Origin: Opitutia bacterium | GTDB taxonomy: Bacteria; Verrucomicrobiota; Verrucomicrobiia; Opitutales; Opitutaceae | Length of the DNA stretch: 64,000 nucleotides | Direction of reading: 5' to 3' | Assembly: GCA_016187925.1 (NCBI GenBank) | Contig: JACPIS010000001.1 | Coordinates: 186,001-250,000, forward strand | In this document: positions 693-51,372 of the stretch, one piece after another | How the letters are laid out: each line of letters starts with the position of its first letter | Position numbering within the stretch: position 1 is the stretch's first letter | Position numbers and translations under genes: made by a program | The notes under the pieces: model-generated | The model's database searches: none | What the model saw: only the letters and a program-made list of their open reading frames with translations | What the model was told of the DNA's origin: nothing

Positions 693-1334
693 ATGATCAA
701 CGGCATCCAGCTCAAGGTCTGTGGCCTCACCCGCGCGGAAGACGCGGTGACCGCCGCGGGCGTCGGCGCCGACTGCCTCGGGTTCATCTTTTACCCGAAA
801 TCGCCGCGTGCCCTGACGTTGGAGCAGTTCAAGGCGCTCGCGTCGCGACTGCCGGCCGGCGTGCGCCGGGTCGCCGTTCTGGTCGAGCCGGGACTGGCGG
901 AACTCTCCGGCGCGCTGCAAGCCGGGTTTGATTTTTTCCAGATTCATTTCAAGCCGACCACGCCGCTCGCGCTGCTGCACGAGTGGAGCGAACAGGTGAC
1001 GCCCGCGCGCCTGTGGCTCGTGCCGAAGCTGCCGCCCGAGGCCGCCGTGCCGCCGGTGCTGCTGCCGCTGGCGGGCACGTTCCTGCTCGATACCTTCCAC
1101 CCGGAGAAGTTCGGCGGCACCGGCGAAACCGGCGACTGGGTCAAGTTCCGCCACCATCAGACGGCGCATCCGGACAAGACCTGGATCCTCTCCGGCGGCC
1201 TGACCCCGGAAAACCTCGCCGCAGCCGTCCGCGCCAGCGGCGCAAAGTTCGTCGACGTGAACAGCGGCGTTGAATCCGCGCCGGGCATCAAGGATCACGC
1301 AAAACTGCAGGCGTTGGCCGTAGCATTGAGGTAG
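693..1334 (+). CDS. trpF: phosphoribosylanthranilate isomerase
   Basis: Isomerises N-(5-phosphoribosyl)anthranilate to CdRP in tryptophan synthesis; cytosolic TIM barrel of 213 residues, the usual length. Visible motifs are KVCGLTRAEDA near the N-terminus with the catalytic Cys, GFIFYPKSPR, the LDTFHPEKFGGTG segment holding the catalytic Asp, and the phosphate-binding LSGGLTPENL and DVNSGVE loops. The ATG at 693 gives MINGIQLKVCGLT; upstream in-frame starts at 648 only add unrelated residues. trpC, the next pathway step, is 61 kb away, so the genes are not in one operon. The TAG stop lies inside a GGTAGGGCG repeat beginning at 1330. Confidence 0.95.
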   Translation: MINGIQLKVCGLTRAEDAVTAAGVGADCLGFIFYPKSPRALTLEQFKALASRLPAGVRRVAVLVEPGLAELSGALQAGFDFFQIHFKPTTPLALLHEWSEQVTPARLWLVPKLPPEAAVPPVLLPLAGTFLLDTFHPEKFGGTGETGDWVKFRHHQTAHPDKTWILSGGLTPENLAAAVRASGAKFVDVNSGVESAPGIKDHAKLQALAVALR

Positions 1335-1437
1335 GGCGAAGCCTCCGGCTGAGCCGCGCGGAATTCGTAGCATCAGCCAGTGGCCTCGGCTCACCGGGAC
1401 GGCGACAAGTGCGTCAGACTTGGCGGTTCGCCCTACC
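1330..1437. repeat. GGTAGGGCG...CGCCCTACC palindromic repeat, copy 1
   Basis: GGTAGGGCGAA at 1330-1340 is the inverse of TTCGCCCTACC ending at 1437; an inner pair GGCTGAGCCGCG / CGGCTCACC shows imperfect stem structure. The left end overlaps the last codons of trpF and provides its TAG. Related copies: 1515-1580, 43882-43946 (inside a gene), 48862-48926 and 51318-51372. Confidence 0.85.
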
Positions 1438-1681
1438 GCAGCGACGTGTCGTTGCGCGGTGGAGGCGTCATCCCAGTCGCCCGAGGGAAATAAGAGATCG
1501 GGTAGATCCGTCGAGGTAGGGCGCGACCGCTGGGCGCGCCGTAAGGACATACGCGGACGGCCCGGCGGTCCGTCCCTACCGACGCTGCTGCGTCGAAGTC
1601 CAAATGCTGCCGGCGATTGGCATTAGGAGTCGGCGCGGTTTCCGGCGGCGCTAACGGATTTAGAAAGTTCGCCGCTCCGCG
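1335..1681. other. gene-free stretch made largely of repeats
   Basis: The 347 bases between the convergent trpF and ffh genes hold two copies of the GGTAGGG palindrome and about 80 bases between them without a recognisable feature. No convincing reading frame or terminator with a T-run is visible. Confidence 0.7.
1515..1580. repeat. GGTAGGG...CCCTACC palindromic repeat, copy 2
   Basis: GGTAGGGCGCGACCGC at 1515-1530 pairs with GGCGGTCCGTCCCTACC ending at 1580. This GACCGC/GCGGTC subtype is shared with the copies at 43882 and 48862, whereas the copies at 1330 and 51318 carry a GCGAA and GAGCCGC/GGCTC interior. Confidence 0.85.
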
Positions 1682-9194: not shown

Positions 9195-9271
9195 GTAGGA
9201 GCCTGCTTGCAGGCGACTCACCGCACGATCCGTCGGCGTGCGTTCCCCATCGCCTGCCAGCAGGCTCCTAC
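9195..9271. repeat. GTAGGAGCCTGC palindromic repeat, copy 2
   Basis: GTAGGAGCCTGCTTGCAGGCG at 9195-9215 and CGCCTGCCAGCAGGCTCCTAC ending at 9271 are inverse. The same ends and inner CGCCTGC motif as 435-490, with a longer centre. Confidence 0.88.
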
Positions 9272-43580: not shown

Positions 43581-46271
43581 TCAGCCTCCAATCGGCCCGA
43601 CGCTCTCGAAGCGCAGCACGGGCGCGGCGGCGGCGCGGGACTCGGCGAGCGAGAGCGTGAAGCGGGCCTCCCAGTCGTTGAGCCCCTCCGGATCGATGAG
43701 CACCTGCGCGATGCGCCAGGCTTTGCCGTCCTCTGTGCTCTGTCCTCCGTCCTCCGTGATGTGCGTGTTGAGCGCCGAGCGGCCCTCGGGATCGAGCCGG
43801 AAGCGGTCGCACGCGTCGAAGTAAGCGTTGAAAGCTTTCTCGAGGCGGCGCGCTTCGGCGAGCCGAGCGGCCTCGGGCGTGGGTAGGGCGGGACCGCTGG
43901 GCCCGCCGTTGGGATCATCGTGGCCGGCCCGGCGGTCCGGCCCTGACTCCATCCGTGCCGCGGCGGCTTCCCAGTCGCGCGCGGCGATGTCCTGCAGGAA
44001 GCCGAGCACGTCGATGCGCACGAGGCGCTTGAAGGCCGTTTGGTCGCGCGTGACATCGAAAGTCGCGGGGCGCGCGGGCTTGTCGGCGGCGTCGGCCGCG
44101 ACGAACTCCGGGTTGCGCAGGCGCTCCCACTCCTCGAGCAGGCTGGAGTCGATGGCACGGATGAGTTCGCGAAAGTAGTCCTCCATTTCGAGCACCGCTT
44201 CGGTCTTGAACGACTCGGGCACGGTCTGGGCGAGCACCTTGTAGGTCTGCATCAGGTGGCGGAGCAGCAGGCCCTCGCTGCGCTCGAGGCCGTATTCGCG
44301 GATGTAGTCGGCGAACGACAGGTAGCGCTCGAACATCTCGCGCGCGATGGACTTCGGGCGGATGTTCTCGCCCTCGACCCACGGGTGCGCGGCGGCGAAG
44401 GCATTGAAGGTCTCGTAGAGGAACTCGCGCTTCGGCTTCGGGTGCTCGGTGATCTCCTCGAGCTTCTCCATGCGCTCGTCGTAGGGGACGCCCGCGGCCT
44501 TCAGCTCGTTGAGCTTCTCGGTCTTCAGTTTGTCCACCTGCCGGCGCAGGATCTGGTCGGGATCCTCGACAATGGACTCGCAGAGCGTGAGCACGTCGAA
44601 CGGGTAGTCGGGGTTCTCGCGGTCCAATTGCGGCAGCGTGTCGATGAGGTAAAGCGACAGCGCCTGGTGCAGGGAGAAATCGTCCTGCAGCTCGACGTTC
44701 ACGCGCAGGCGGCGGCCGGAGGGTTGGCGCGGGATGATCTCGACGATCTTGCGGTCGAGCAGCGCACGAAAGAGCTGCCAGGCGCGCTTGCGCAGGGCGT
44801 TTTTCTTGGCGGGCGTCTCGTGGCAATCGCGGATGAGCCGCTGCATGGCGCGGCAGCCGTCGGCCTCGCGCGCAAGCACGAGCAGCAGCATGCCGTGCGT
44901 GACGGTGAAGCGCGACGAGAGCTCCTCGGCCGGCGCGGTCATGAGCTTCTCAAAGGTCTTGGCGTCCCAACCGACGCTGCCCTCGGGCGCGGACTGCTTG
45001 ACGAGTTTCTTCTTCCTGGCCGGGTCGGCGGCGGCCTTGGCCTCGGCCTGCTTGTTGGCGATGATGTGCTCCGGCGCCTGCACGACGACGTAGCCCTTGT
45101 CGTCGTAGCCGGCGCGCCCGGCGCGTCCGGCGACCTGGCGAAAATCGCGCACGCTGAGGATGGCGGCCTTCTGGCCGTCGTATTTCCAGAGCTGGGTGAA
45201 CACGACGGTGCGGATGGGGACGTTGATGCCGACGCCGAGCGTGTCGGTGCCGCAGATGAGCTTGAGCAGGCCCTTCTGCGCGAGCTGCTCGACGAGGATG
45301 CGGTATTTCGGCAGCAGGCCGGCATGGTGCACGCCGATGCCGTGGCGCAGCCAGCGCTTCATATCGCGGCCGTAGGGGCTGTTGAACTTCACGCGCTCCA
45401 GCTCGGTGGCGAGGGCGGCCTTCTCCTCCTTCGTGCAGACGTTGAGACTCATCAGCGCCTGCGCGGCCTCGGAGGCGGCGCGCTGGGTGAAATGCACGAG
45501 GTAGATCGGCGCGCGTTTCTGCAGGAGCAGCTCGCCCAGTTTTTCCGGCAGCGGTGTCTCGGAGTAGTCGAAGCTCAGGGGCACGGGCCGGCGGTCGCTG
45601 CGCACGGTGAGCGAAGGCGCGCCGGTGAGTTTCGTCATCTCCCGCTCGAAAAATTCCGTCGAACCCAGCGTGGCCGACATGAGCAGGAAGCGCGCCTGCG
45701 GCAGCGTGAGCAACGGCACCTGCCAGGCGTAGCCGCGCTCGGCGTCCGAGTAATAATGAAACTCGTCCATGATGACCGCGGCGACCTCGGCACGGTCGCC
45801 GTGCGCGAGGGCGATGTTGGCCAGGATCTCGGCGGTGCAGCAGAGCACGGGCGCGTGCGGGTTCACCGAGGCGTCGCCGGTCATCATGCCGACGTTCTCC
45901 GGGCCGAAGTCGCGGCAGAGGCTGAGAAATTTCTCGTTCACCAGCGCCTTGATCGGGCAGGTGTAGACGGAGCGCTGGTGCGCGCAGAGCGCCTTGAAAT
46001 GCAGGGCCGCGGCAACGAGGGATTTGCCGGAGCCGGTCGGCGTGTTGAGGATGACGTTCTGCCCCTCGAACAGTGCGAGCACGGCCTCCTCCTGCTCAGG
46101 ATAAAGCGTGATGCCGCGCTCCGCCATGACCGCGAGGAAGCGGTCGAGCACCGCGTCCGCACGCGGAGCGCCGGGCAGCGGGGCGAGGGGAGCGGGAGGC
46201 GGGACGGACACCCGACTACAACGCAGGTTTCCCACGCCCGACACAAGCCCGGAGCGAGAAGCGTCCACCAA
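43581..46271 (-). CDS. DEAD/DEAH box helicase with C-terminal DUF3516
   Basis: 896 residues. Ski2-like helicase: [15 protein letters not shown] (Walker A), [17 protein letters not shown] (DEFH box), [53 protein letters not shown]; then a long helical C-terminal DUF3516 region. Two stretches look inserted: about 776-797 ([20 protein letters not shown]), coded by a GGTAGGG repeat at 43882-43946, and about 833-848 ([13 protein letters not shown]), coded by 43728-43768. RNA helicase role is likely. The start is uncertain; GTG codons just downstream of ATG 46271, near VSVPPPAP, are alternatives. Confidence 0.92.
43728..43768. repeat. purine/pyrimidine-biased insert inside the helicase
   Basis: CTCTGTGCTCTGTCCTCCGT, then CCTCCGTGATG, coding (minus) [14 protein letters not shown]. 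The reverse-complement wording 'cagaggacggag' also occurs just before icd at 43299-43310. Looks like a small interspersed repeat read in frame. Confidence 0.55.
43882..43946. repeat. GGTAGGG palindromic repeat, copy 3, inside the helicase gene
   Basis: GGTAGGGCGGGACCGC at 43882-43897 and GGCGGTCCGGCCCTGA ending 43946 match the GACCGC-type copies at 1515 and 48862. Read on the minus strand it codes [20 protein letters not shown] in frame. Confidence 0.85.
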
Positions 46272-48861: not shown

Positions 48862-48926
48862 GGTAGGGCGCGACCGCCGGGCGCGCCGCGAACGGCTTTC
48901 GGCGGTCCCAGCGGTCCCACCCTGCC
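48862..48926. repeat. GGTAGGG palindromic repeat, copy 4
   Basis: GGTAGGGCGCGACCGCCGGG at 48862-48881 with GCGGTCCCACCCTGCC ending 48926. Lies in the convergent gap between ECF41 and the RhlE-like helicase. Confidence 0.78.
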
Positions 48927-51317: not shown

Positions 51318-51372
51318 GGTAGGGCGAACCGTTCCCGGTGAGCCGCGGCTCGGCGGGACGCCTCGCCCTACC
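51318..51372. repeat. GGTAGGG palindromic repeat, copy 5
   Basis: GGTAGGGCGAACC at 51318-51330 with CGCCCTACC ending 51372; an inner GTGAGCCGC / GCGGCTCG pair. Interior matches the 1330 copy more than the others. It accounts for about a quarter of the 220 bases between the DTW gene and S4 gene; the rest shows nothing. Confidence 0.83.

Follow-up and report, generated by a model that had tools for sequence, protein, structure and literature searches.

When a palindromic repeat lies inside the reading frame of a conserved gene, the question is how it came there and whether the residues it encodes now serve the protein. This question was raised by a helicase gene in the window, a stretch of 64,000 nucleotides (contig C44, positions 186001-250000) taken from a genome of 4.0 Mb in 48 contigs. 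The answer favoured here is that positions 43882-43947 are very probably a non-autonomous, BIME-like inverted pair of GTAG-tagged REP units, belonging to a family spread by RAYT and lying in frame in a tolerant linker of the helicase.

An inverted pair of REP units in the helicase frame

The palindrome recognized in the sequence-only reading was found at positions 43882-43947 (66 bp). It is imperfect and is made of two GTAG-tagged REP units, inverted and with their feet outward (Table 1); one foot is GTAG and the other is mutated (TCAG). The REP family of this element was named F1. Its unit comprises the foot GGTAG, a 6-bp stem, the loop ACCGCYGGG and then the second stem arm, and each unit folds as the 6-bp stem plus 2 bp past an A.G mismatch, closed by a triloop. 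The folding energy of the whole element was -26.0 kcal/mol, compared with a mean of -16.5 in shuffled sequences (z -4.05), and it was better than that of all 200 shuffles. The same reading had the palindrome coding without breaking the frame, and this was confirmed: the element, read in the GTA GGG phase, encodes residues 776-797 (22 codons) of the ORF at 43581-46271, in which the DEAD, helicase-C and DUF3516 domains were matched by Pfam.

Table 1. Features of the window, numbered from its first nucleotide
Feature	Coordinates	Strand	Remarks
F2 foot pair	1330..1437		one exact F2 unit at 1331-1355
F1 REP pair, 66 bp	1515..1580		overlapping ORF outside Pfam scan
DUF3516 DEAD/DExH helicase ORF, 896 aa	43581..46271	-	TTG start assumed; PF12029 E 2.1e-153, PF00270 E 4.9e-18
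F1 REP unit A	43882..43907	+	foot GGTAG, stem GGCGGG/CCCGCC, loop ACCGCTGGG; hairpin -9.8 kcal/mol
Spacer between REP units A and B, 14 nt	43908..43921
F1 REP unit B, inverted	43922..43947	-	foot mutated to GTCAG, stem GGCCGG/CCGGCC, loop ACCGCCGGG
F1 REP pair, 65 bp, decayed	48862..48926		between sigma-factor-like ORF and DEAD helicase ORF (names by eye)
F2 REP pair	51318..51372		one exact F2 unit at 51347-51371 (-)

A palindrome could also have arisen by chance in a coding linker rich in G and C. Taken by itself, the short word GGTAGGGCGNG occurred 13 times in the window, little above the 6.7 expected, and 3 of 100 shuffles reached 13; being near chance level, it left the long F1 unit as the feature that counts. 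The 27-base pattern of the F1 half-unit, with up to 3 mismatches, gave 47 matches in the genome and none when the pattern was reversed. Furthermore, when units were picked by foot and loop only and the stems were ignored, pairing was complete in 41 of 43 stems; shuffling the 3' arms 2000 times gave 12.1 such stems on average and never more than 23. Stem variants of the family include GGCGCG/CGCGCC, GGCGGG/CCCGCC, GGACGG/CCGTCC and GGCCGG/CCGGCC. The reversed-pattern control and this covariation led to the rejection of a chance origin, whose probability, given also the folding of the element, we consider negligible.

The examined loci of the window genome contained 54 F1 units, arranged as 19 inverted pairs (61-79 bp) and 16 singles, that is, 35 elements, a set that leaves out the two units at C22:4742 and C40:8556. 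The foot was GTAG in 46 of the 54 units, GCAG in 4 and another sequence in 4. Four other places in the window had been read as copies of the same palindrome; those at 1515 and 48862 do belong to F1. The other two, at 1330 and 51318, contain units of a different family, named F2 (GTAGGGCGARnnnTCCnnnYGAGCC), which is represented by 66 exact copies in the genome. Additionally, two copies, 96% alike, of a GTAGGAGCCTGCTGGCAGGCGA-type sequence were seen at 465-490 and 9246-9271, perhaps another GTAG REP family, with exact matches also in the loci L014 (as an inverted pair) and L154.

The genome-wide count confirmed that F1 is dispersed, with 45 exact units in the window genome, and showed it to be patchy within the genus: 99, 93 and 57 exact units were counted in the congeners G001, G005 and G006, 1-8 in four others and none in the remaining five. 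The repeat is probably mobile, as had been supposed. Its unit structure, dispersal, stem covariation, absence from most homologous linkers (see below) and open frame together lead to the explanation by a REP pair.

F1 elements in other genes of the genome

The helicase copy had been presented as exceptional among the copies of the palindrome in being intragenic. This could not be maintained, since at least ten other F1 elements were found in recognizable genes. With the DUF3516 helicase included, at least 11 of the 35 elements lay in nine genes recognized by Pfam: an HrpA-like DUF3418 helicase (three elements), the DUF3516 helicase, an AcrB-type transporter, a DUF255 protein, IspG/GcpE, MnmA, GH31, a B12-binding/MeaB protein and a sulfatase. 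This number is a minimum, because the scan covered 18 proteins, namely 17 chosen ORFs over F1 elements and the helicase; long ORFs over elements in, for example, L003, L007, L013, L021 and L023 lay outside it. ORFs giving no match (L014, L020, L150, L154, L157 and L160, and alternative frames in L006, L151 and L153) were left uncounted. The insertions in AcrB, GH31 and the sulfatase rest on Pfam matches that span them rather than on comparison with orthologues; for IspG and the DUF255 protein, where the domain match does not cover the insert, comparison with orthologues showed the flanks to be coding.

All nine of the forward-facing units listed were read in the GGT AGG phase. With the boundaries used here, the pair length was divisible by three in one of the 8 intragenic pairs and in 8 of the 11 other pairs, so that keeping the frame involves flanking bases too. 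The lengths of five of the 8 intragenic pairs leave a remainder of 1, and the inserted unit may be longer than these boundaries.

The helicase linker in homologues

Among 80 named records of helicase homologues, most were labelled Opitutaceae, Opitutia/Opitutae or Verrucomicrobia; the best match was an Opitutia groundwater MAG, and MAGs of Lacunisphaera and Oleiharenicola stood near the top. The linker was readable in 106 of 110 homologous loci (100 once six duplicate rows were removed). F1 was detected by regex in 4 of the 106 linkers, those of the window genome, of G006 twice (L120 and L031) and of L032, an Oleiharenicola MAG, which corresponds to 3 of the 100 non-duplicate linkers and to three genomes. 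In nearly all homologues the segment was thus a gap or unrelated sequence, as would be expected from the sequence-only reading, and no distant homologue in this comparison showed the same residues without the palindrome. The F1 pair of L032 occupied the same linker in the same reading phase.

The median linker length was 39 residues, and the F1-bearing linkers measured 55, 55 and 53. The helicase linker exceeds that of relatives by only about 13-16 codons, against the 22 that the F1 pair encodes, which points to a replacement, or to an insertion with a deletion, and not to a clean insertion. An AlphaFold model (64-row alignment; mean pLDDT 78.3, pTM 0.58) predicted residues 777-797 to be disordered (pLDDT <50), between helices at 767-774 and 799-820.

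An unrelated palindrome was found in the DUF3516 linker of G014, a member of another genus (its twin record, L090, is labelled Ereboglobus). A pattern taken from it (AGACATTCCTGTCTGTGC-type, up to 2 mismatches) gave 27 matches in the G014 genome and none in the control; this family, AGACATTCCTGTCTGTGC and its variants, has one inverted pair within the linker, at G014:C5:105483-105555.

The helicase of the window also has a second low-complexity stretch at residues 838-850 (43722-43760), built from a near-tandem CTCTGTCCTCCGTCCTC-like repeat. This stretch is variable or shorter in relatives, and residues 842-848 are predicted to be disordered. Runs of TEDG or KAEGGRLKAE, similar to it, were seen in the main linker of L065, L148 and L075.

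Origin of the helicase insert

A FastTree tree was built from the core protein of the helicase, with 104 loci kept and seven duplicates merged, after exclusion of loci with fewer than 500 core residues or less than 66% identity. The window helicase grouped with L121-L124 (genomes G007, G001, G012 and G003; support 0.99), four sequences without the insert. That of G006 paired with L127, also without it (0.987), and L032 was placed elsewhere in the tree. Hence, the window genome and G006, which carry F1 inserts at the same codon, do not form sister lineages, although a node between them has a support of only 0.48.

A single ancestral insertion, inherited by both genomes and lost in the lineages between, would account for their shared codon, frame and length of 66 bp. 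Nevertheless, it would require at least three losses on this tree in which the two are not sisters, and no extra orthology was visible between the inserts: 49 of 66 positions were identical (50 with a one-base shift), against 51-54 of 66 for the window insert and seven further F1 pairs, also of 66 bp, in the window genome. We regard a common insertion as conceivable and somewhat doubtful; as far as these sequences go, the comparison favours separate arrival or replacement.

The sequence-only reading had gone on to suggest that the element was exapted as a protein linker. The open frame in two congeners, and the F1 pair of L032 in the same linker and phase, are what would be expected if the REP-encoded peptide were now selected. 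Nevertheless, the insert is missing from the sister group (G001, G007, G003 and G012; node 0.99) and is predicted to be disordered, and changes between the window and G006 inserts numbered 4, 6 and 7 at codon positions 1, 2 and 3, showing no codon-position bias, a comparison that is weak if the two arrived separately. In the flanks the corresponding changes were 9, 2 and 30 over 100 codons upstream, and 5, 1 and 8 over the 30 codons downstream that are in register. An indel lies beyond these, and the downstream identities over 60 and 100 codons (0.69 and 0.58), which run across it, were not used. Exaptation was set aside as unsupported by the codon-position changes and the predicted disorder, and appears very unlikely; a tolerated passenger explains the helicase insert better.

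In the history that we propose, a transposase of the RAYT type (Y1/HUH) would have moved the F1 pair in a strand-transfer reaction at its GTAG foot, and the pair would have arrived in frame between the two helices of the DUF3516 helicase. It would persist there since the linker tolerates extra disordered residues; this copy would be neutral, and in-frame copies would be the survivors of selection.

Different REP families at the same linker codons

Nine linker sites, all selected for the presence of a REP in the window genome, were compared with congeners (Table 2). Different REP-like families occupied the site in different species at six of the nine, and at three (HrpA sites 2 and 3, and the DUF255 protein) when F1 and F2 alone were considered. 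These two are the families counted genome-wide; members of F3, F4, F5 and the GTGG types were recognized with short regexes or by inspection.

Table 2. Occupants of the nine linker sites in the window genome and its congeners
Site	Window genome	REP-bearing congeners	Rest
HrpA site 1	F1	F5 G006; GTGG-tagged repeat and half F2 G005	empty in five
HrpA site 2	F1	F2 G006, G003, G012, G001; GTGG type G005	G007 unclassified (F1-like by eye); G004 empty
HrpA site 3	F1	F2 G006; F3 G001 (by eye)	empty G005, G003; others unreadable
HrpA site 4	F3	F2 G003, G012	unclassified G006, G001, G007; short G005, G004
IspG	F1 and F4	F4 G006; F1 G005; GTGG type G007	tandem heptamer G001; unclassified G008; no call G003, G004; unreadable G012
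DUF255 protein	F1	F1 G005; F2 G001, G006; half F2 G008	empty G007, G003; unreadable G004
B12/MeaB	F1	F1 G001	none in G007, G003, G004; unreadable G006
MnmA	F1		no family call in seven congeners
DUF3516	F1	F1 alone within genus

In the HrpA orthologues of five genomes, 13 of the 14 outward GTAGGG...CCCTAC pairs (up to one mismatch) lay at the four sites, the other being near residue 791 in G006. No such pair was found in the HrpA of G005, G007 or G004, several HrpA ORFs being cut at locus ends. Within IspG, the linker of L250 (G007) holds a GTGGGAGCGAGCTCGCTCGCGA repeat inside the gene, which we take to resemble the well-known REP of Pseudomonas.

Both the sharing of sites among families and the clustering of the HrpA pairs suggest that REP pairs landed repeatedly and independently, or were replaced in place, at the same tolerated linker codons. 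We lean slightly towards this explanation, bearing in mind that the nine sites were chosen for their REPs, that several HrpA ORFs are truncated, that the families other than F1 and F2 come without genome-wide counts, and that selection against insertions elsewhere could yield the same clustering without any replacement mechanism. A stronger proposal is that certain linkers of Opitutaceae proteins are standing landing pads at which the GTAG-REP pair of one family is exchanged in place for that of another, perhaps because the resident GTAG foot is itself the target of the RAYT. We consider it unlikely on present evidence; were it true, orthologous proteins would differ in the REP-encoded peptide found at a given codon. 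Target motifs at the empty sites, compared by eye, showed nothing consistent.

Y1_Tnp genes and the probable mobilization of F1

Eight matches to Y1_Tnp, the domain of RAYT-like transposases, were found in the window genome, seven of them above the cut-off, and F1 was within about 600 bp of none of the eight. Three of these genes were each flanked on both sides by a GTAG family of their own: L118 by inverted F4 units, L113 by F5 units, and L117 by F2 units at C5:84497 and C5:85007, which the regex of the bracket scan missed and a separate F2 count showed. The GTAG hairpins searched for were not observed at L111, L112, L114, L115 and L116. A looser scan of the flanks gave many weak hairpins, which were treated as chance, the L114 stretch being cut at the region end.

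The sample from relatives consisted of 30 loci out of 59 matches in seven genomes, a few of them too short to scan. The bracket scan counted matches at least 900 bases from the locus ends, so that L200 fell wholly outside it and L206, L208, L214 and L218 partly. Two of the 30 loci, L227 (G001) and L205 (G021), contained a Y1_Tnp gene bracketed by exact F1 units, with 58% and 59% identity, respectively, to L118 of the window genome. In G005, with its 93 F1 units, no F1-bracketed gene was seen among the 5 of 14 matches examined, some of which were too short for the scan. The linked RAYT-type transposase anticipated for the repeat was thus present in two relatives and absent beside F1 in the window genome. 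Judged from the genes that it brackets in relatives, F1 resembles a RAYT family. As no Y1_Tnp gene is flanked by F1 in the window genome, and L118, L113 and L117 go with F4, F5 and F2, the mobilizer of F1 may be lost, may act in trans or may be unassembled.

Regarding the transposases themselves, in both L227 and L118 the Y1_Tnp ORF runs into the repeat at its 3' end, so that the C-terminal residues of the protein are repeat-encoded. L118 ends in GGAGRPALPTF, and the end of L227 has the same GGPSGPALP as the helicase linker.

Significance and comparison with known systems

The helicase insert, placed on a tree, exemplifies a hairpin of mobile type that became coding sequence, and it is no curiosity in this genome. 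The occurrence of several REP families at one codon opens a neglected question to testing, whether RAYTs target existing REPs or few linker codons are tolerant. It is also a warning that REP-encoded peptides (GRAxPxGx...) may be mistaken for conserved protein sequence.

Opitutus terrae is a member of the Opitutaceae, and the 2013 paper on GTAG REPs that includes it is reportedly by Di Nocera and colleagues. The available portion of that survey describes GTAG REPs as forming dimers and dispersed copies, with tyrosine transposase partners and with insertions inside ORFs (PMC3733652, 2013). It attributes to O. terrae the most intragenic GTAG REPs, some of them in genes of RNA helicases, describes two recB genes of Xanthomonas that carry unlike REPs at nearly the same position, suggests that insertion in linkers or loops is neutral (PMC3733652), and gives the hairpin of the superfamily a stem of 5-13 bp and a loop of 2-20 nt (PMC3733652, Table 1). 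F1 agrees with this description in its unpaired GTAG foot (46 of 54 units), in its 6-bp stem, which falls within the range and covaries (41/43), and in being dispersed and forming dimers (19 inverted pairs, 16 singles).

Intragenic GTAG REPs, including those in RNA helicases, are therefore already published for O. terrae, as the available text of that paper states (PMC3733652). The elements described here are from another genome and have as hosts DUF3516, HrpA, IspG, MnmA, AcrB, DUF255, GH31, sulfatase and B12/MeaB proteins. Compared with the same text, presence and absence are here set against a tree, and several families are found at one codon across congeners. What is new is this pattern of several genes and several families at the same codon, which extends a brief remark in print (PMC3733652). 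A search by title and abstract for Opitutus REPs and same-site intragenic REPs, with most subscription journals outside its reach, showed no further relevant paper among those listed.

The RAYT/REP unit, in the part of its description available, is a transposase gene flanked by two inverted REPs (PMC2817692, 2010). A similar arrangement was observed at L227 and L205 (F1), L117 (F2) and L118 (F4). It differs in that no F1-bracketed gene was found among the 8 Y1_Tnp matches of the window genome.

Palindromic elements within genes of Rickettsia are said to have been reported by Ogata et al. in 2000. The available part of one account describes them as palindromes of 105-146 bp that became in-frame parts of conserved protein genes and seem to be tolerated there (PMC2229807). 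F1 is likewise palindromic, in frame in conserved genes and apparently tolerated; it differs in the length of its pairs (61-79 bp, 66 in the helicase), its GTAG feet and its Y1_Tnp partners in relatives. The helicase insert, with 66 bp against 105-146 bp, works like the insertion of a Rickettsia palindromic element but is not one of them.
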